DNA from: Pseudomonadota bacterium
GTDB lineage: Bacteria > Pseudomonadota > Gammaproteobacteria > Burkholderiales > Burkholderiaceae_C
Assembly (NCBI GenBank): GCA_020161065.1
Contig: JAIUPH010000034.1
Span: 22,566-86,565, forward strand
DNA length: 64,000 nt
Direction of reading: 5' to 3'
Below are positions 151 through 11,010 of this stretch, piece after piece. The position numbers and the translations under genes were made by a program. Numbering within the stretch: position 1 is the first letter of the stretch; each line of letters opens with the position of its first letter. The notes beneath the pieces were generated by a model that was not told where the DNA came from, made no database searches, and saw only the letters and a list, made by a program, of their open reading frames with translations.

Positions 151-564
151 TTGGCCGGGGAGGATCGTGCGCGCGACGGCAAGCCCAGGCCGCGGGCGGG
201 CAACACCGTTCGCCTGGAACTGGCGCTCATCGGCCACCTGTTCACCATCGCCATCAAGGAATGGGGTTTGGGTCTGGCCGTCAACCCTGTGCTCAACATT
301 CGCCGGCCCTCGCCTGGCGCTGGACGGAACCGGCGGCTCGCGGAAGCTGAAGAGCGGCGTCTCATGGCGCTGGTCGACGACTACTCGATTCCCATGATGA
401 GGTGGATCGTGCGCACTGCGATCGAGACCAGCATGCGCTCGTCCGAGATCACGGGACTTCGCAAGGGGCAGGTCGAGCTTGGCAAGCGCGTGGTCAGGCT
501 GTTGGAGACCAAGAACACGGTGCCACGAACCGTCCCACTGTCCAAAGCGGCCACAGAACTCTTC
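151..564 (+). pseudogene. Tyrosine recombinase (phage integrase) remnant
   Basis: Reads as the middle of a tyrosine recombinase: the end of the core-binding domain (segment around IGHLFTIAIKEWGLGL) followed by the start of the catalytic domain with the first catalytic arginine in the context TSMRSSEITGL. The N-terminal ~90 residues are absent and the frame seems shifted upstream, since a PLTP segment and a RDKRLA segment that normally adjoin lie in different frames near 130-150. The HxxR box and the nucleophilic tyrosine are missing because the frame runs straight into an IS481 transposase end at about 556-576. It cannot be active. It marks mobile DNA next to the ietAS module. Confidence 0.75.
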
Positions 565-924
565 CGCGAGGCGCTGGCCTACTTCGAGTGCTTCGGCGTG
601 TCCATCCAGCGGGTGCTGACCGACAACGGCAAGTCGTTCCACTCCGCCTTGTTCGCCTCAAGCTGCCTGGAACTGGGCATCAGCCAGAAGTTCACCCGCG
701 CGTACCGCCCGCAGACCAACGGCAAGGCCGAGCGCTTCATCCAGTCGGCCCTGCGCGAGTGGGCCTACGGCCAGCCCTACTCCAGTTCAGACCAACGCCG
801 CGAGCAGTTGCCGGCCTGGAACCACTTCTACAACTGGCACAGGCCGCACCACGGCATCAACCTCAAGCCGCCGGTCTCACGTCTCTTGGTTCCTCGAAAG
901 AACCTGTTGACACTTCACAGCTAG
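565..924 (+). pseudogene. IS481-family transposase, C-terminal fragment
   Basis: The last ~120 residues of an IS481/IS3-superfamily rve integrase-type transposase. The second catalytic aspartate lies in RVLTDNGKSF and the catalytic glutamate in TNGKAERFIQSAL, followed by the usual C-terminal segment WNHFYNWHRPHHGI and the terminal LLVPRKNLLTLHS. The first catalytic aspartate and the helix-turn-helix part are missing. It is joined in frame to the integrase remnant upstream. The stretch 902-921, with gttgacacttcacag, resembles an IS481 right terminal end. Non-functional alone. Confidence 0.8.
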
Positions 925-937
925 CCAAGACTTTCTG

Positions 938-3505
938 TTAGGCGGCAGGCCCCGGCCGCACGCCAATACGCGGCTCAATTCGTTCTCGCACTTGCTGATA
1001 GACCGGCAGATTCACGCCTTCTGCGACCTCCAGCGAAACGCACAGCGCGAATCTGATCGCCTCCCTGACAGGGCCGGCATCGGCCAGGCAGTTGACACGC
1101 ACCGCTAGGGTTGTGCCTTCTTGTACGACTGCAGCGCGCGACTCCTCGAACACTTCGTGATGGATCGTCCCTTGCCGGAGTTGCCGCCACTCGCCTTCAG
1201 CACGATCGCCGCGCAAGGGTCCATCGGGAAGGTCAACCCAGAGCCGCGCCACGCGGTACTTCGAGTGTCGAGGATTGATCGGCGTCATCCAGGCCAGCGT
1301 CACAGTGATCTTGCGCTTTACGACGGTCGCATGGAGAGCAGGCGGATAGGGCACGCGGAATTCCAAGGCCTTGTCGTTCTTCAGCGCACCGACACCCAGC
1401 AGGGTCGCGCGTTGTGCAGTGCAGGTCAGTGCCCTCTCGACGTCGGCAACGCCTAGTCCGCCGTAGCGGCTTGCCAACCGCCGCTGTGCCTGCCATTCGT
1501 CGACATCGGGCCTTGCCGCCAGCACCTGAGACTGCACGTCGCCAAGGAGCGCACCGTGAGCGAGCAGCGCCTTGATCAACACCGCGTCATAGCTCTCATC
1601 CAAGGTCTGGTAGCTGGCACGGAGGATTTGGAGCACCGCATGGGCACGTGCAGCCCACCGCGTTCCCAGCGCGGCCGCATTGCTGGTGCCACGTGTGTGC
1701 AGTGCGGCGCCTTGCGCTGTTGGCGGCGCGGCCACCAACTGCCCTGGAGGCTGCAGTGCTTCGATGGCCTGGACTCTTGTCTGACCTGCCGGTGACTGGA
1801 CGGCCTCTCGATAGAGGACGCGGCCACCTGGAAGCAGGATGTCAGGCTTCACCGCTCGCCGGAATCCCGGTCCGATGCCCGAATAGGGCGCTAACCCTCC
1901 TTCCGCGAACAGCACGAAGCGTCCGGGCACCGGCGTCACCGTGGACCCGTCCGAATGACAGGCCCCGACGGTAAGGGCATTGACCGATTCGGCAGGGGCC
2001 AGGATACGGCGATGCATGTCGTCGCGGCAGAGTGCCTGCATCGCCAGCCTTGACCGTTGCTCCAGTGGCATCGCGGACACGCTGCCCGCTGCGGTTTCCA
2101 GCAGCAGCTCGCCATGCTCCCGATTGCCCGCGCTAACCACGAAGAGCACGTTGTACTTGTGCTGAAGCCAGTCGAGCAAACGAGCCCACGGCGAGAGCTC
2201 GCCACCGAACGCTCGATGGGGGTCGCCTACGGAGAGGTTGATGACTCGCACGGTGGGTGCCAACGCAGGCCGCCCAGCAGTCGCCTCGAACATTCGCCGC
2301 ACGGCCACATGGACCAAGTCGATCAGCAGGCGGTCTTCTGGTGTGCGTTCGACGCGCTGACCACTCGGCCCGGCGGGACGCATGATGGGCCGCGCATAGA
2401 TGGGTCGGGCCAGTGGCGCGTCCGCCATACCCAAGTCACCTAACGCGATCAGCGATGCCATCGCCGTGCCGTGAGTTCGCTCTGCAGCCGGATAGTTGTC
2501 GCCCCAGCCGTCTGGGTCGTCGATCTCAACGCGGCCTTGAAGCATAGGATGGTTCGCTAGTGGCAAGCCGTCGAGCAAGGCGACCACAGCAGTTCCGTTG
2601 GTGCGTTGTGCGGGCGGTGGCCTTGTCGGCGAGCGCGCCGTAGCTGCCTCGACAGGGACAACGGCCTGCCCCTGCGCACGGAAGAACATCACGCGGTCGG
2701 AATGCAGCAACGGTGGTGCCTCTCCATCGAGAAGCTGCCCCACACCCAAGGCTGGCACGTCGACAAGGAAGCCGTGATACGCGATGTCGCCGATCAGGCT
2801 CTCGTGAAGTACAGCGCCGCCCAATTGCCCTACAAGCTCGCGGATTTCTGCTGATGCTGCAGCGTTCCTAGCTGCTGCAGCAAAGTGCCAAGCTTCAATT
2901 TCGAACCGTATCGACGCGGCACCATGCTGGACTCGGAAACGCAGGGCGTCCCGAAGCTCTGGGCCCAGGCGATCGGCTGGACTCCAGAAGCGCGCGTCCT
3001 TCAGGTGCGCGAAGACGCCTTTCCAGGCGCTCAGGCCCGGGCCCAGGTTCGCGTTCGGATCGTCCCGGTACAGACCCCACAGGCGAACCACCTCATCGAG
3101 CGCGGCCCTGTTGCTGCCTACCAGAAAGAGCTTGCCGCCGAGCGGCTTTCCTCTCTCCCGCGTATCGTAGAAGTCTTCGTCGGGCGCGATCTCGTCGTCA
3201 ACCGCCGCCAACCACTCGAGCCCCGGCACGCGTTGCGCCGTCGAGATGAAGTCATCGACGGATCCGACGGTCTCGAACACGAGCACCAAGTCCGGATCAT
3301 CGTTCTGCGCACGTGCGCGCAATTCCAGTCGTCGTGCATCGAAGGCCGCTTGCAGGCGTCCGAATCGATCGCCCAGTCGTCGGCCCTGACGCGCGTGATC
3401 GGGATAGTGAACAGACGGCGGGAAACCGTTCCCCCCTTCGCGCACCACTTGAGACGGCGCGGGGAAGATCAGCAGCGGGAACTGCTCAGCTGTACCCGTC
3501 GCCAC
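938..3505 (-). CDS. ietS: IetS: S8 (subtilisin-like) serine protease of the IetAS defence module
   Basis: An 855-residue protease with no signal peptide, so probably cytoplasmic. The S8 domain lies in the middle: Asp312 in VALLDGLP, His345 in RTHGTAMAS, oxyanion Asn461 in VSAGNREHG and nucleophile Ser608 in TRGTSNAAA. About 300 residues precede it and about 230 follow. It starts with GTG 3 nt after the stop of the AAA-ATPase gene 3509-4519; an overlapping ATG at 3509 is out of frame. This ATPase/subtilase pair is the IetAS family, known from Agrobacterium Ti-plasmid stability and from phage-defence screens. The inference is that the ATPase controls or feeds the protease when infection is sensed. 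The module sits beside integrase and IS remnants, consistent with transfer. Confidence 0.85.
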   Translation of the reverse strand: MATGTAEQFPLLIFPAPSQVVREGGNGFPPSVHYPDHARQGRRLGDRFGRLQAAFDARRLELRARAQNDDPDLVLVFETVGSVDDFISTAQRVPGLEWLAAVDDEIAPDEDFYDTRERGKPLGGKLFLVGSNRAALDEVVRLWGLYRDDPNANLGPGLSAWKGVFAHLKDARFWSPADRLGPELRDALRFRVQHGAASIRFEIEAWHFAAAARNAAASAEIRELVGQLGGAVLHESLIGDIAYHGFLVDVPALGVGQLLDGEAPPLLHSDRVMFFRAQGQAVVPVEAATARSPTRPPPAQRTNGTAVVALLDGLPLANHPMLQGRVEIDDPDGWGDNYPAAERTHGTAMASLIALGDLGMADAPLARPIYARPIMRPAGPSGQRVERTPEDRLLIDLVHVAVRRMFEATAGRPALAPTVRVINLSVGDPHRAFGGELSPWARLLDWLQHKYNVLFVVSAGNREHGELLLETAAGSVSAMPLEQRSRLAMQALCRDDMHRRILAPAESVNALTVGACHSDGSTVTPVPGRFVLFAEGGLAPYSGIGPGFRRAVKPDILLPGGRVLYREAVQSPAGQTRVQAIEALQPPGQLVAAPPTAQGAALHTRGTSNAAALGTRWAARAHAVLQILRASYQTLDESYDAVLIKALLAHGALLGDVQSQVLAARPDVDEWQAQRRLASRYGGLGVADVERALTCTAQRATLLGVGALKNDKALEFRVPYPPALHATVVKRKITVTLAWMTPINPRHSKYRVARLWVDLPDGPLRGDRAEGEWRQLRQGTIHHEVFEESRAAVVQEGTTLAVRVNCLADAGPVREAIRFALCVSLEVAEGVNLPVYQQVRERIEPRIGVRPGPAA

Positions 3506-3508
3506 GCA

Positions 3509-4519
3509 TCAAGGCCTGTCGGCAGTTGTCGGGCCGACGCGCTCTTTCCACTGGGATAGGCGCTCGGTCAAGATCCGCTGAAGGTCTGCGCCCGGCAGCG
3601 CCAGAACATATCGACGATGCACGTCCTCGCAGAACTGCTCCAGATCGGAGAAACTCTGCACCGGCAGGCGGGTCGCCAACGTCTTGGCAGGCAGGCCCAG
3701 CGGCACGCCCAGCGTCGTTTCGAACCGTTCGAACCACGCTGCGCGCTGCGCTGGCGTAGGAGCTGGCAGGTTCAGGCGCAATTGGAAGCGTCTCCACACG
3801 GCCCTGTCCAGCAACTCCGCATGATTGGTGGCCGTCACGACGACCACGTGGCTTGGAAGTGAATCGATCTGCAGAAGCAGTGAACTCACCACGCGCTTGA
3901 TCTCGCCTGTCTCGTGCGTGTCGCCGCGTTCCTTGCCCAGAGTGTCGAACTCGTCGAAGAACAACACGCATTGGTGCGTGCGCGCGAAGTCGAACAGCCG
4001 CTTCAGGCGCCCACTGGTTTCACCGAGAAAGCTGCCGACCACAGCTTCGTAGCGCACCACAAAAAGCGGCACCATCAACTCGAACGCGATGCCTTCCGCA
4101 AGTGTCGTCTTGCCGTTGCCCGGCGGGCCCTCCAGCAGCACGCGGTGGCGAGGCTCGACTCCGTAGGAACGAAGCAGTTCGGCGCGTTGTTGCTCTTCGA
4201 CCAGCTCTCGCACCGGAGTGGCGACAGCGTCATCGAGGAACATGCTGGTCAACCCACGGCGTGGCTCCACTTCGTAGAGCAGGCCGCCGTGACCACCGTC
4301 GAAGCTACGGACTACTTCGGCGGCTTTGGCGCTGGGTGCCGGCTGACGCAGATTTTCTTCCAGGCGCTCGGCGAGCTGGGTGTGGCGCTTTGCACGCTCT
4401 TCGGCTGCGATGGCTTCGACCGTCGACCGAAAGGTACGCTGATCTCCCTGCGTCCCGGCACGCACTAGGTTCACGATGAGGTCAGCTCGGGGCATGGGCG
4501 ACGGCGGGCGGAAAAGCAA
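3509..4519 (-). CDS. ietA: IetA: AAA+ ATPase of the IetAS defence module
   Basis: A 336-residue single-domain AAA+ ATPase. Walker A is GPPGNGKTT (residues 131-139), Walker B is VLFFDEFD (185-192), sensor 1 is in VVVVTATNH, and an arginine-finger region is in DRAVWRRFQ. The N-terminal ~90 residues are charged and lack a recognisable domain. It is the first gene of a two-gene operon with the S8 protease, separated by 3 nt. The start is uncertain: a TTG at 4519 and an ATG at 4495 are in frame, but the only good ribosome binding site (AGGAGG, 4545-4550) lies further upstream near an in-frame CTG at 4540. The family link to IetA rests on this gene pairing and size. Confidence 0.85.
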   Translation of the reverse strand: MLFRPPSPMPRADLIVNLVRAGTQGDQRTFRSTVEAIAAEERAKRHTQLAERLEENLRQPAPSAKAAEVVRSFDGGHGGLLYEVEPRRGLTSMFLDDAVATPVRELVEEQQRAELLRSYGVEPRHRVLLEGPPGNGKTTLAEGIAFELMVPLFVVRYEAVVGSFLGETSGRLKRLFDFARTHQCVLFFDEFDTLGKERGDTHETGEIKRVVSSLLLQIDSLPSHVVVVTATNHAELLDRAVWRRFQLRLNLPAPTPAQRAAWFERFETTLGVPLGLPAKTLATRLPVQSFSDLEQFCEDVHRRYVLALPGADLQRILTERLSQWKERVGPTTADRP

Positions 4520-4684
4520 AAGCAGTATACGGGTCGTCAGCTATCCTCCTGTGCTCTTCCATTGTGGCCTTCTGTGATCAGGGAGCGGCAGGACAATGAT
4601 TCACAGAAATCTTTGTGCAGGCCTTCGCTACGCCTTGGCAAGCGCGTCGGGCGCCTTCAAAGGCCTACGGTTCATGCTCGTGAC

Positions 4685-5641
4685 TCAACGCAGGCCCGCG
4701 TCCCCCACCGGCCGGGCCGCCGCCTGCTCCACGCGTTCGCGCGTCAGCGGCGGCACGAATGTTTCGATGAAGGCGTATTCGTAGCTGCGCAGGAAGCGGC
4801 CGCGGCGCACGGCCAGGCGCGTCATGTTGCCGGCGAACAGGTGGCGCGCGTCGATCGCGGCCAGGCGGGCGTCGCGTTCTTCGTCGTAGGCGATGGCGGC
4901 GATGATGCCGACGCCCATGCCCAGCTCGACGTAGGTCTTGATGACGTCGGCATCCATCGCCGACAGCACCAGGTTGAACGTTAGTCCGGCGCGCAAGAAC
5001 GCCTCGTCGATGTGGCCGCGGCCGGTGTAGCCGCGCTCGTAGGTGATCAGCGGCAGCGTCGACAGGCGCTGCAGCGTCAGCGGCTGGCCGGCCGCGGCCT
5101 CGGCGTCCAGCGCGTGGCCGCGCGGCACGATCACCGAGTGCGTCCACTGGTAGCAGGGCAGGGCCAGCAGTTCGGGGTAGTCGGCCAGCGCTTCGGTGGC
5201 CACGCCGATGTCGGCCTCGCCCGAGAGCAGCAGCTCGGCCACCTGGCGCGGCGAGCCCTGGTGCAGGTGCAGGCTGACCTCGGGGTGCGCGGCGCTGAAA
5301 TCGCGCACTGCCGGCGGCAGCGCGTAGCGCGCCTGCGAGTGCGTGGCCGCAATGGTCAGCGTGCCGCGGCCCTGGGCCGCGAAGTCGTCGCCGGCGCGCT
5401 TCAAGTTGTCGGCCTCGTGCAGCAGCCGCTCGACGATGGGCAGCACCGCCGCGCCGGGGCCGGTCAGGCCGGTCAGCCGCTTGCCGGCGCGCTCGAAGAG
5501 GTCGATGCCCAGTTCTTCTTCCAGCTCGCGGATCTGGCGGCTGACGCCGGGCTGCGAGGTGTGCAGCGCCTGCGCCACCAGCGTGAGGTTGAAGCCCTGG
5601 CGGACCGCTTCGCGCAGCGAGCGCAGTTGCTGGAAGTTCAC
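4685..5641 (-). CDS. cysB: CysB-family LysR regulator
   Basis: A 318-residue LysR-type transcription factor. The N-terminal winged helix-turn-helix (residues 1-60, containing LHTSQPGVSRQIRELEEELG) is the typical CysB form, and the effector domain carries the CysB-like sulfate/acetylserine pocket segment ATHSQARYALP. CysB activates sulfur assimilation and related genes. No cys gene is next to it here; the divergent neighbour is an N-formylglutamate amidohydrolase, and ietA lies downstream on the same strand after 165 nt. Full length for the family. Whether it regulates the divergent gene is not shown. Confidence 0.85.
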   Translation of the reverse strand: MNFQQLRSLREAVRQGFNLTLVAQALHTSQPGVSRQIRELEEELGIDLFERAGKRLTGLTGPGAAVLPIVERLLHEADNLKRAGDDFAAQGRGTLTIAATHSQARYALPPAVRDFSAAHPEVSLHLHQGSPRQVAELLLSGEADIGVATEALADYPELLALPCYQWTHSVIVPRGHALDAEAAAGQPLTLQRLSTLPLITYERGYTGRGHIDEAFLRAGLTFNLVLSAMDADVIKTYVELGMGVGIIAAIAYDEERDARLAAIDARHLFAGNMTRLAVRRGRFLRSYEYAFIETFVPPLTRERVEQAAARPVGDAGLR

Positions 5642-5750
5642 GTGGCAGGCGGCGCGCGAAAGCCGCGGTCTTTGTGGGTGGGCAGCCGCGCATTCTCGTC
5701 GCCGCGCCCCGCGCCGCCGTCGAACTAATCGTCATGAGCATTCGCGCCCG

Positions 5751-5798
5751 GCGCATAAGCCGGCGCATAAACCGGCGCATAGGCCGGCGCATATGCCG
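5751..5798. repeat. Four tandem 12-bp repeats
   Basis: Four contiguous units of the form gcgcataNNccg (NN = ag, aa, gg, tg) occupy 5751-5798, between the CysB-like gene and the N-formylglutamate amidohydrolase gene. They start 32 nt before the amidohydrolase start codon. The regular 12-bp period could be a repeated protein-binding site or replication slippage; sequence alone does not decide. Confidence 0.85.
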
Positions 5799-5829
5799 GC
5801 GCGGCCAGGCGCTGGCATAGCATGTCGCG

Positions 5830-6769: not shown

Positions 6770-7924
6770 TCAGGTGCCCGCGGCCAGCGGCACCGTCAAC
6801 ACCACGGGTCTGCTTTCATCGTTGAGATCGCCGATCAGCAGACGCTGGTTGACGCGGTCCACCGCCAGCGCATTGGGCTGGTTCAGGCGCCCCGGCAGCG
6901 CGCCGAGCTGAAGGCCAGGCGTGGTAACACCGAGCTGTCCGACCAGCACCGTCATCGTGCCGTCGATGCCGAACCTGCGGACGACGCGTTTGGCCGTGTC
7001 GGCCAGGTACAGACGGCCTGCTGCGTCGACCGCCATGGCACCGGCACGCAGGCCGATGCCGGCAGACTCGCCGACGAAAAGGCTCTTGTCCCCATTCGCG
7101 GAGATGCGCCAGATCCTGGTCGCGGACGGCGCATCGAGCCGGGCAACGTCGCTGACGTAGAGCTCGCCGAGGTCATTGAAGACCAAGGCGCCGACGTCGT
7201 CGACGGCTACTTCCTTCGCGTAGGCGGGCAGCGAAATGCCGGCGTCGCAACGTCTGATGAAGAGGCCGTATGACGGGTTGGCCGCCGTCGGCGACGGCGT
7301 GCTGACCTGCACGGTCACCGTCACGCCCTGCGCATTGACGGCCACGCCCATCGCCGATGCCCAGTCGGCCTGGCTGCCGCACCGAGTCGACACCAGCCCC
7401 GTGGTCGAGACTGCCCGCAGCCTGCCGGCCCCCTGGTCGGCCACCATCAGCGGGCCATCGCCATCCAGGGCAAGCCCCAAGCAGGGGTAGCGGCCATACC
7501 CGTACACCGTGCAATAGGGCAACGCGGGATTCACGATGGAACCGAAACGGGCAGCGGCACCTTGGCCATCGACATCGCCGGTCTGCGTCAAGTCACCGGC
7601 CAAGGTTGTGACCTCGCCCTCGGCGCTGATCCTGCGGATCGCGCTGTAGTCGCCGGCGTAGATCACGCCCCGGCTGTCCGCGACGAGCGAATCGATGTTG
7701 AGAAAGCCGGCCTGCCCGGCATTGCCATCGCGTGCGCTGCCGTTGAAGCCGCCGGCCAACAGGGTCAGCATCGGCTTGGCAGCCGGCGGTGTGACCGGGG
7801 GATCGGGATCTGCAGTGGAACTCGTGCCGCCGCAAGCGGCGAGCAACACGATGGCAGCAAGTGCCGCGACCATCGGGGGCGCTTTCGGGCGGGGTCGGGC
7901 CGCAGGGGTGTCTTGCTCGCTCAT
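6770..7924 (-). CDS. NHL/beta-propeller-type lipoprotein
   Basis: A 384-residue predicted outer-envelope lipoprotein: the start ATG at 7924 gives a signal sequence with lipobox LLAAC (lipid-carrying Cys31), then a Pro/Thr linker and a body with NHL-like repeats of the type LTLLAGGFNGSARDG, VTTLAGDLTQTGDVDG and LDSLVADSRGVIYAGD, as in extracellular NHL propellers. The start overlaps the stop of the S8 protease gene as ATGA, so the two are probably translated as a pair. The repeats suggest a binding platform on the cell surface rather than an enzyme. Substrate unknown. Confidence 0.7.
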   Translation of the reverse strand: MSEQDTPAARPRPKAPPMVAALAAIVLLAACGGTSSTADPDPPVTPPAAKPMLTLLAGGFNGSARDGNAGQAGFLNIDSLVADSRGVIYAGDYSAIRRISAEGEVTTLAGDLTQTGDVDGQGAAARFGSIVNPALPYCTVYGYGRYPCLGLALDGDGPLMVADQGAGRLRAVSTTGLVSTRCGSQADWASAMGVAVNAQGVTVTVQVSTPSPTAANPSYGLFIRRCDAGISLPAYAKEVAVDDVGALVFNDLGELYVSDVARLDAPSATRIWRISANGDKSLFVGESAGIGLRAGAMAVDAAGRLYLADTAKRVVRRFGIDGTMTVLVGQLGVTTPGLQLGALPGRLNQPNALAVDRVNQRLLIGDLNDESRPVVLTVPLAAGT

Positions 7925-10287
7925 TGAACCGTCGGCATCGTGCCGCTCGCAGGGTTCGGATACACGTAACCGAGCCATTCGATGTTGTTGCTGACGGCAG
8001 AATACCCTTGACCAAGCATCGACGACAGCGCAGGTTCGGGAAATACGGCGTGGTCGTCGCGTGCCAAGTGATAGCGCCGCAAGAGCTTCACCGTGCCTAA
8101 CGGCTGGGTCAAGTTGGCTGGGTATATATAGCCTTCATGACCGTCCACCTTATATCCGAGCGACTCAAAAGCTGACACCTCATTGTCCAGTACGAGTGTC
8201 GTATCGACGTGATTTGGGTTAGTCGCGCAGATAGCTGGGATGTACGTGGTGGCGTCCCCGCACTTCCAACTCATGCGCACGAGTCGCGACAACGGTACTG
8301 CGGCGTTCTTTGGATTGGCGGCGCTCGTAAAGACCCAGGCCTCCGCCATCGTGTAGTTGGGAGCGCTGGGGCCAATAACGAATGGTGATCCTGGCGGCAA
8401 CCAATAACTGGAGATTATATTACCGTACGCGGGAAAGTACTGATTAATGTATTGACTGGAATTACTGACCCGTAGGCGCAGATAGCCCTCAACCGCCGCA
8501 CGCGCCATCTGCGGCACTATCGTGTAAAACGAATCACTTCGATTGCTGCTGTAGTAGGAAAAGAGCGGAGTTAATCGCGACGGATTGGCGGCAATAGCCG
8601 AAGTCATAGCAGTCACTGCACTAGGCAAACCATGACCATAATAGGTATCCGGCGTCTGATGTCGATCCGCTGAAGATCGTATTAGATCACGCACGGCGGC
8701 AAAAGAGGCACGCGGATTTACGGATCGAAGGAGTGCTGCCAACGCCGATATATGAGGTGCCGCCATTGACGTCCCGGTGCAAGTGCCGACGCCATCACCT
8801 ATACCAGAGGCCAGAAAGCGAGGCGCAGATAGATCTACGCCTGTCGTATCTCCGCATGATAGTTGTATATTATGATTGGTATTTGCGACAAAATCAGAAA
8901 CAATATCTTGAGCCGGTCCCATCACGCCTGCCAATGATGGATTGTTTGTACCGAGCTCGCAGTAATCCAGTGTGCACGTTGACTGCGTGGTCTCCCAACG
9001 ATGAAGATCTGGCTTCAACCCACCAACCGGGAGGACGCTGCTTGAATCTCCCAAGTTGCCTGGAAACTGCGGGCCGTCACCGAGCGCAGGAAAGACGGTC
9101 GAATTATTTAAATTATTTCCCGCTGCAACTACAATCAGCACGCCTCGGGTTGTTGCATAGTTTATGGCAGCACAAATAACTGGAGAATCGTTGCATGTTT
9201 GATTTGGAGCTCCTCCGCTCCAGTTAATGATTTGTAAACCTATATCAACAGCTTCCGTGATTTGCGCGCCAATATATGAATCCGTGCGAGCGGTGCCAGG
9301 TATTCCGTATGGAAATACAGTGAAACTACATTCCGGACAACCTCCGGCAACATAGCCGGTATTAGCAGGACCAAACACGATGTTAGGGGGATTGGGGCTG
9401 GCGTTATTGTGCGCGCCCGCCAAGATGCCGGCCACATGAATTGTATGATTGGAATTATTGTATCCGGCGTAATACATTCCCGCTTGGGCGTAATCACTTA
9501 AGAAGTGACGACGGAAGTTCTGAATAAGATCGGGATGTGTTCTAAAATCAGTTGCTGGATTTCCAAATGGAGCAACTTGTACTCCCAGATATCCAAAATC
9601 CAATAGTCCAACATACACGCCCGCGCCGGTGCTCAAGCTCCAGGCATCAGAAAATTTCATGGCGTCCATGCCCCATTGATACTGAGCTGGGGTTCCATTG
9701 TTGGAAAAATAGGGGTCACTCGGAGCTGCCGAAATAGTTGCGCCAACTCTGTTAATATTGACATTTTGTATCGCGAGTTCGCGGCGCAATTTACTGAATG
9801 CCAAGCGGGCAGTTTCTACGCTGACGTACCGTAGAACAATATAACGCTCCAATCGCTCGCGCGCAAACATCGCTGTGACATTGCCTAATTTGTCGTTCGC
9901 AATAGCAGTATCAATTGCAATCCGATCGCGATCTGATAAGCGGTCAAAATTTATCACGTAGCGCGCATGGAGCGGATTGCCTAATGCGGCATTGACGTTA
10001 TCCTCAGTATTGTTAACGCCTGCAACGAGCGCGCGCTCGATTTCGACAGAATTCTTGGCGGCAGCCAGCGACTTGGAGAGTGCTGATAGTCTACTTGTGT
10101 TGCCGTAATTAATAACAATGGTCAATTCATTAGTGTCGCCGGTGGCAGCATCAGTTAGCAACGCCCCCGGACTGGCTGCTTGACTTGAACTCAACGTGGT
10201 CGCCAGTAGTAGCAATGTCGTACCACAATGCCGCCTCCATTTTCTTCCGTTGGTATGAACAGTCATATTGCAATCTGCATGCTTCAT
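7921..10287 (-). CDS. Secreted S8 subtilase with DUF5648-like C-terminus
   Basis: A 788-residue exported protease. ATG at 10287 is chosen because GGGAG lies 9 nt upstream; it gives a signal peptide (hydrophobic GTTLLLLATTLSSSQA). Catalytic Asp230 lies in VGLLDFGYLG, His281 in NSNHTIHVAGILAG (the usual HGTH is HTIH), Asn391 in VVAAGNN and Ser507 in GTSMAAPHIS. Several cysteine-containing insertions follow the catalytic His. The last ~240 residues carry repeats such as LFSYYSSNRSDSFYT, resembling the DUF5648 module of secreted proteins. The gene is clearly AT-richer (near 50% GC by eye) than the ~70% GC surroundings, a sign of transfer. It is coupled to the NHL-type lipoprotein downstream. Confidence 0.85.
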   Translation of the reverse strand: MKHADCNMTVHTNGRKWRRHCGTTLLLLATTLSSSQAASPGALLTDAATGDTNELTIVINYGNTSRLSALSKSLAAAKNSVEIERALVAGVNNTEDNVNAALGNPLHARYVINFDRLSDRDRIAIDTAIANDKLGNVTAMFARERLERYIVLRYVSVETARLAFSKLRRELAIQNVNINRVGATISAAPSDPYFSNNGTPAQYQWGMDAMKFSDAWSLSTGAGVYVGLLDFGYLGVQVAPFGNPATDFRTHPDLIQNFRRHFLSDYAQAGMYYAGYNNSNHTIHVAGILAGAHNNASPNPPNIVFGPANTGYVAGGCPECSFTVFPYGIPGTARTDSYIGAQITEAVDIGLQIINWSGGAPNQTCNDSPVICAAINYATTRGVLIVVAAGNNLNNSTVFPALGDGPQFPGNLGDSSSVLPVGGLKPDLHRWETTQSTCTLDYCELGTNNPSLAGVMGPAQDIVSDFVANTNHNIQLSCGDTTGVDLSAPRFLASGIGDGVGTCTGTSMAAPHISALAALLRSVNPRASFAAVRDLIRSSADRHQTPDTYYGHGLPSAVTAMTSAIAANPSRLTPLFSYYSSNRSDSFYTIVPQMARAAVEGYLRLRVSNSSQYINQYFPAYGNIISSYWLPPGSPFVIGPSAPNYTMAEAWVFTSAANPKNAAVPLSRLVRMSWKCGDATTYIPAICATNPNHVDTTLVLDNEVSAFESLGYKVDGHEGYIYPANLTQPLGTVKLLRRYHLARDDHAVFPEPALSSMLGQGYSAVSNNIEWLGYVYPNPASGTMPTVQ

Positions 10288-10524
10288 TCTGTTGATCTCC
10301 CGCAAGTCCAACAAGGCTGAATCGTCTCGCCCGTGTCTTGATCGCGAACTAACTCGTGAGCTAAATCCGCAGCCAGTCAAAAAAGCGGCGCGAGTATGCT
10401 GATCCAGCGTAGCTGTTCATCTAGCATCGAAGTTTGATTTGATTCAAACATGGTGCGTGCGAGACATCGGTGCACATCTGCTCGTGCGTGCTCACGGTGC
10501 ACCAAGCCCGTTGGCGTAGCGTGA
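10288..10524. other. Intergenic region between protease and IS66 fragment
   Basis: About 240 bases with no supportable gene. The first ~150 bases keep the low GC of the protease gene and probably hold its promoter; GC rises near 10480, just before the IS66 fragment, which marks the edge of the foreign segment. Confidence 0.5.
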
Positions 10525-11010
10525 GTGCGACTGGAACCCGACCGCGTGCCTGACCACGCCACGTTGCTGCAGGCGCTGGGCTGGGTGATGTTCCGCCGGC
10601 GCGAGCAAGGCCGCTTGCGCGGTGCGGGCCTGCAAGGCATCCGGCGGCGGCTACGCGCGGCACTGGAGCAAAGGGCAGCAAACCCTGTGCTCGCGCATCG
10701 CCGGCACTTGCACCAACGTGCGGCGTTGTGGCCCGCGCTGTGGAGCTTCACCACCAACCCGCTGCTGCAGCCCACCAGCAACGCTGCCGAGCAGGCGTTG
10801 CGCAGCCTGGTGCTCAAGCGCAAGATCTCCGGCCCCACCTGCTCGCTGCGGGGCGATCAGTTCCTGGCGCGTGGCTTCAACGTCCACGGGATCTGTCTGC
10901 GTCAAGGCCTCGACCTTTGGCGTTTCATGCACAACGCCGTGCTCGCCTTCATCGACAAGACCGCGCCGCCTTCGCTGTTGCCTGCCCCGGTCGCAGCGCC
11001 CAGCGGCTGA
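10525..11010 (+). pseudogene. IS66-type transposase, C-terminal fragment
   Basis: About 160 residues from the end of an IS66-like DDE transposase: the catalytic glutamate region TNPLLQPTSNAAEQALRSL (the family form is PTNNAAERALR), then LVLKRKISGPT and the C-terminal segment ending AFIDKTAPPSLLP. A TGA stop lies immediately upstream of the GTG at 10525 and no N-terminal part is present, so it is a relic. It abuts the truncated XRE/MmyB regulator at about 11050. Confidence 0.75.

Follow-up and report, generated by a model that had tools for sequence, protein, structure and literature searches.

What does an intact ATPase-protease gene pair do amid broken integrase and insertion-sequence genes? 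The question is raised by positions 938 to 4519 of the 64,000-nucleotide stretch of DNA analysed here (the window), where the minus strand carries ietA (3509-4495), encoding an AAA+ ATPase of 328 residues, and ietS (938-3505), encoding an S8 subtilisin of 855 residues that starts at a GTG. Both open reading frames and their arrangement are as the sequence-only reading had described them, with ietA as the upstream partner and 3 nt (3506-3508) between the two genes. The name IetAS reportedly belongs to a stability system of pTiC58 and is said to be used for the anti-phage ietAS as well.

The family assignment made in that reading, which a lack of matches to IetA and IetS models was to count against, is borne out by nearly full-length profile matches as well as by alignments. 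The PADLOC model PDLC04232 matched IetA with an E value of 8.1e-149 (profile positions 1-323 of 330), three more PADLOC IetA models also matched it, and PDLC04233 matched IetS with an E value of 7.8e-300 (profile 4-851 of 855). Pfam found AAA in IetA (E 5.3e-29) and Peptidase_S8 in residues 306-652 of IetS (E 2e-19). The matches to the NCBIfam equivalog models were significant but far under the curated cut-offs, at 220.7 bits (E 3.2e-65; cut-off 510) for IetA with IteA NF042959 and 87.8 bits (E 5.4e-25; cut-off 900) for IetS with IteS NF042956. Because four other IetAS pairs among our comparison loci (L017, L032, L036 and L040) also miss these cut-offs, the IteA and IteS models are narrow. By its sequence, the window pair is no equivalog in NCBI's sense, yet it belongs to the wider IetAS family, as a real, intact and conserved member of a clade that the PADLOC models already cover.

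The frame of ietA is open from a TTG at 4519 down to the stop at 3509, and a start even farther upstream, at an in-frame CTG behind AGGAGG, had been hinted at. This element does exist (minus strand, 4538-4550, with AGGAGG at 4550-4545 and the CTG at 4540-4538), and the ribosome binding site by the ATG is indeed poor: within the 20 nt before the ATG there is no Shine-Dalgarno-like stretch, the best having 2 of 6 letters. However, the comparative evidence leads us to reject the CTG and places the start of ietA at the ATG 4495-4493 rather than at 4519. This ATG is the first ietA codon in all 12 aligned loci (the window and 11 others), the PADLOC IetA profile alignment begins there, and L010, the nearest relative (IetA 88% identical), has a stop codon two codons 5' of its ATG. 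The AGGAGG-CTG element is not conserved, and a -10-like hexamer, TATACT, stands between the CTG and the ATG 45 nt downstream of it, so that the CTG is probably not transcribed.

The hexamer (4524-4529, minus strand) has its first base 34 nt 5' of the ATG. An exact TATACT was found 30-35 nt before the ATG in all seven loci of the clade closest in the IetS tree (the window, L010, L011, L012, L013, L134 and L027). Among six of these, L027 being left out, pairwise identity of the flanking 60 nt (-100 to -41) was only 18-42%, and shuffling of the upstream letters placed TATACT at -36 to -28 by chance at 0.0005-0.0013 per locus. In L014-L020, L024, L025 and L029 the 100 nt upstream of ietA lack the hexamer, which marks it as a trait of the closest clade and not of the whole family. 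We infer a role as a -10 promoter element; a search upstream of ietA in the window gave no good -35 box.

The surroundings of the pair read as an island at a tRNA-Met gene that insertion sequences have disrupted, an IS21 dividing its integrase and a remnant of IS481 cutting it short, with ietAS left intact. The contig runs from hrcA through tRNA-Met, the N-terminal piece of an integrase, IS21 istB/istA, an integrase middle with an IS481 tail, ietS and ietA to a CysB-type regulator. The integrase and IS remnants noted earlier beside the pair were recognised by Pfam and NCBIfam at 151-924 (plus strand) as one fused frame of a tyrosine-integrase fragment (Pfam stretch about 334-585) and an IS481 transposase tail (about 547-885); the N-terminal integrase piece, left of the window and past IS21, holds a stop. 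At third codon positions the GC fraction of ietS (0.70) and of the ietA frame (0.74) is below that of hrcA (0.95) and of the regulator (0.93), a CysB-type LysR gene (4685-5641, minus strand; NCBIfam NF009327 above cut-off) with host-like codon usage. No exact repeat of at least 13 bases shared with the tRNA-Met region was found as a right-hand attachment repeat, so the right edge of the island is placed only by the change in codon usage. Of 20 regions from the same genus, 17 have a tRNA-Met located by ARAGORN behind hrcA, and in none of the 20 did the integrase pieces have a match. Among the comparisons listed, strong similarity to the contig of the window stopped at the tRNA without the flanking regulator following, and there was no clean empty site.

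Several features were observed in passing. After hrcA in three same-genus regions (L120, L115 and L131), the tRNA-Met matches that of the source genome only over its first 41-49 bases and then breaks, with more partial copies (bases 1-38 and 38-77) following in L120; an inserted element or an intron in the anticodon region is possible. The window itself holds tandem repeats of about 15 bases (CCGGCGCATA..) at 5747-5800 between the regulator and the next gene, an unrelated second S8 subtilase of 819 residues (7921-10380, minus strand) that lies between ordinary genes and whose third positions are, by eye, low in GC, and the remnant of an IS66 transposase C-terminus at 10525-11010 (plus strand; Pfam DDE_Tnp_IS66, E 3.1e-6).

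The active sites of the pair were found to be complete. IetA has an intact Walker A (GPPGNGKT), Walker B (FFDE), pore loop (SFLGET) and arginine fingers, and across all 33 aligned pairs the residues of both Walker motifs, sensor 1 and the Arg fingers do not vary. The Asp/His/Ser triad of IetS, correctly read as intact from the letters alone, consists of D312 (codon 2572-2570), H345 (2473-2471) and S608 (1684-1682), and each of them, like the oxyanion N461, is identical in 33 of 33 aligned IetS. Eight pairwise Nei-Gojobori comparisons with L010-L013 gave dN/dS values of 0.04-0.09 for ietA and 0.05-0.09 for ietS, ratios that are rough since dS (1.5-3.3) is near or past saturation; the sequence comparison nevertheless shows purifying selection on both genes. 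That the pair could be a decaying relic, now as functionless as the adjoining integrase, is suggested by the broken state of the integrase and IS481 genes next to it. We consider this very improbable in view of the two full-length frames, the presence of every catalytic residue and the dN/dS against L010 of 0.04 (ietA) and 0.05 (ietS), although a pairwise ratio is blind to a very recent loss of function.

The two genes also appear to have travelled as a unit. In the window and the 11 aligned loci, ietA always precedes ietS, with gaps of -8 to +27 nt, a range that fits translational coupling. Trees of 29 IetA and 29 IetS sequences, with four pairs with a truncated IetA left out, both separated 19 rows including the window from 10 others with a support of 100/100, and in both the window grouped next to L010. 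Disagreements were minor (L033/L036-L038, L135 and the L013/L027 region), and the tree program flagged L040, L029 and L135 for long branches. As judged from these trees, IetA and IetS are shown to be inherited together, in a well-supported clade apart from the ten other IetAS pairs sampled.

The source genome has one IetS, and among 60 other genomes (36 of the genus) we found no full IetS and one weak match to the S8 part only. A class-wide draw gave matches to the IetS model in 28 of 369 genomes, six of them, the source genome included, above 700 bits. The window IetS had no match at 1e-15 in 50,697 phage records, which argues against wide carriage by isolated phages. Matches to IetS were found on three viral contigs, and in L136 the match starts only at residue 287. 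The second, L134, carries ietA and an ietS 73% identical to that of the window and cut at the contig end; the pair lies just beyond the genes for terminase and portal, and a capsid gene of the P2 family is close by. In P2-like phages the portal-side region is a described defence hotspot, occupied in P2 by old and tin (PMC9122126); L134 stops short of its other boundary. In the third, L135, two serine recombinases precede ietAS.

The relatives from the genome collection lie in varied settings. L017 (5287-15803) has hsdM, a small ORF, hsdS, ietA, ietS and hsdR in a row, possibly a composite defence unit with IetAS inside a type I restriction operon. In L019 an integrase precedes the pair and genes for TIR, PDC-M11A and AbiEi follow it, in L010 a fragment of an integrase lies about 10 kb off, and L011, L012 and L013 are among relatives that lie, by eye, amid ordinary-looking genes. 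Relatives of the pair are thereby shown, from gene content, to occur in phage, restriction and other defence settings. The PADLOC scan of neighbours covered 112 of 115 listed ORFs, the other three (two in L011, one in L019) being long or overlapping and doubtful, and we claim no enrichment, the scan having no control set. Kinase-, helicase- and Argonaute-like PADLOC matches in L010 and L016 were unspecific and were not counted. As a separate observation, the contig of the window itself encodes, outside the window and about 20 kb to the left of ietAS (L022:992-3388), a reverse transcriptase (RT_UG17, E 4.4e-141) beside a SLATT_5 protein (RTasSLATT, E 6.8e-45), the make-up of DRT10, for which a preprint argues a link to telomerase (PMC12632851).

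Plasmids carry the family as well: IetS has relatives on 71 plasmid records, each less than 60% identical, with 80% or more of the query covered in 59 records, and IetA has relatives on 574. In the one plasmid record whose surroundings we inspected (5 kb per side), the Paraburkholderia plasmid pOLGA1 (L137:5001-7419), ietA is intact and 75% identical, and ietS ends after about 240 residues, inside the N-terminal region and before an IS6 transposase gene. This single natural case of an intact ietA beside an ietS reduced to its N-terminal domain is what would be expected if the protease were the costly part.

The plasmid carriage of IetS, the survival of the pair after loss of the integrase and the SgiAT system of SGI1 would all suit a pure addiction module, with IetS harmful to any cell from which the island is lost, IetA as its neutraliser and no role for phage. 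In SgiAT the subtilisin is reported as the toxin and the ATPase as the antitoxin, the two forming a toxin-antitoxin system that promotes SGI1 maintenance (PMC5006074). However, relatives also lie in a type I restriction operon and in the portal-side hotspot of a P2-like phage, the matched profile families carry defence names, and carriage of IetAS is reported to have accompanied phage resistance in Pseudomonas isolates, in a study stating that the lysogens for a test were not obtained (PMC11878078). Addiction and defence roles can, moreover, coexist, and addiction as the sole function seems to us unlikely.

A toxin-antitoxin-like abortive-infection module is the most likely function, and on balance we favour, as a probable though far from certain reading, that the intact IetAS is the surviving cargo of the decayed tRNA-Met island and works as such a switch. 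IetS would be a cytoplasmic subtilisin kept inactive by its own N-terminal ferredoxin-like domains together with IetA, and IetA would form an AAA+ ring with pore loops that both grip and remodel either IetS or a partner. Disturbance of IetA or of the IetA-IetS complex, whether by a phage or because the element is lost, would free IetS, which would then cut cell proteins and halt growth before phages are released. Such a switch would also make the mobile element more stable, an effect reported for SgiAT in SGI1 and for IetAS in pTiC58.

The conserved parts of IetA might instead point to a ClpXP- or FtsH-like ATP-dependent protease, with IetAS unfolding and degrading phage proteins and leaving the host unharmed. 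By sequence, the nearest proteins to IetA are threading members of the AAA+ group, NSF and p97 among them, and its aromatic-hydrophobic-Gly motif, which we take from its position to be pore loop 1, has F/Y in 32 of 33 sequences, L/M in 33 of 33 and G in 33 of 33. To our knowledge, however, no subtilisin fold acts as the chambered partner of an AAA+ ring, and the ATPase of SgiAT is reported to counteract the protease (PMC5006074), so that we hold this explanation to be quite improbable.

The inhibited state assumed for the abortive-infection switch is suggested, weakly, by predicted structure. In AlphaFold2 models superposed jointly on pro-subtilisins, residues 1-300 of IetS (codons 2606-3505, minus strand) contain predicted tandem ferredoxin-like units, at about 73-173 and 198-277, that appear to be placed like a subtilisin pro-domain, and the IetS model superposes as one piece on pro-subtilisin E. 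Taken alone, the N-terminus gave weak fold matches level with those to unrelated folds; it had no Pfam pro-domain match, and no chain among solved structures matched the IetS profile. From the models we infer that the second unit may act as the inhibitor. In a more tentative proposal, which we put forward as a possibility only, IetS would be a zymogen of the cytoplasm that carries its own tandem ferredoxin-like inhibitor, and IetA, more than a passive antitoxin, would be a pore-loop motor that positions the inhibitor until infection flips IetA from holding to releasing, the switch being common to both clades. If so, IetAS would be a mechanically gated protease switch.

The pair is thus not a new kind of system but a well-preserved new IetAS, of a family linked to mobile-DNA stability and virus resistance. 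The case contributes a clade with a phage-borne member and a short conserved candidate promoter element, pore-loop residues of IetA that are conserved, and, in IetS, an N-terminal region that might act as an inhibitor which stays attached. The added value lies in the resolved start of ietA, the relative in a phage hotspot and an inhibitor hypothesis open to truncation and point-mutation tests. The mechanism of IetAS was still called unknown in 2025 (PMC11878078), and our literature search, which covered sources other than subscription journals, found no paper solving it.

Compared with known systems, the pair has the make-up of the IetAS of PADLOC, one operon in which the gene of an S8 protease comes after that of an AAA+ ATPase, and differs in lying in the 19-row clade apart from the ten other pairs sampled. 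With pro-subtilisins and KP-43-type subtilases, IetS shares the catalytic fold and, in the models, a ferredoxin-like unit at the place of the pro-domain and a beta-rich C-terminal domain; unlike them, it has two predicted N-terminal units, an AAA+ partner and, on inspection by eye, no obvious secretion signal. SgiAT is likewise described as an operon of a subtilisin and an AAA+ antitoxin on an integrative element (PMC5006074, PMC10954446). The report on SgiAT in turn cites the pTiC58 system as the closest to it, its toxin being 36% and its antitoxin 50% identical to the IetS and IetA of pTiC58, respectively (PMC5006074).
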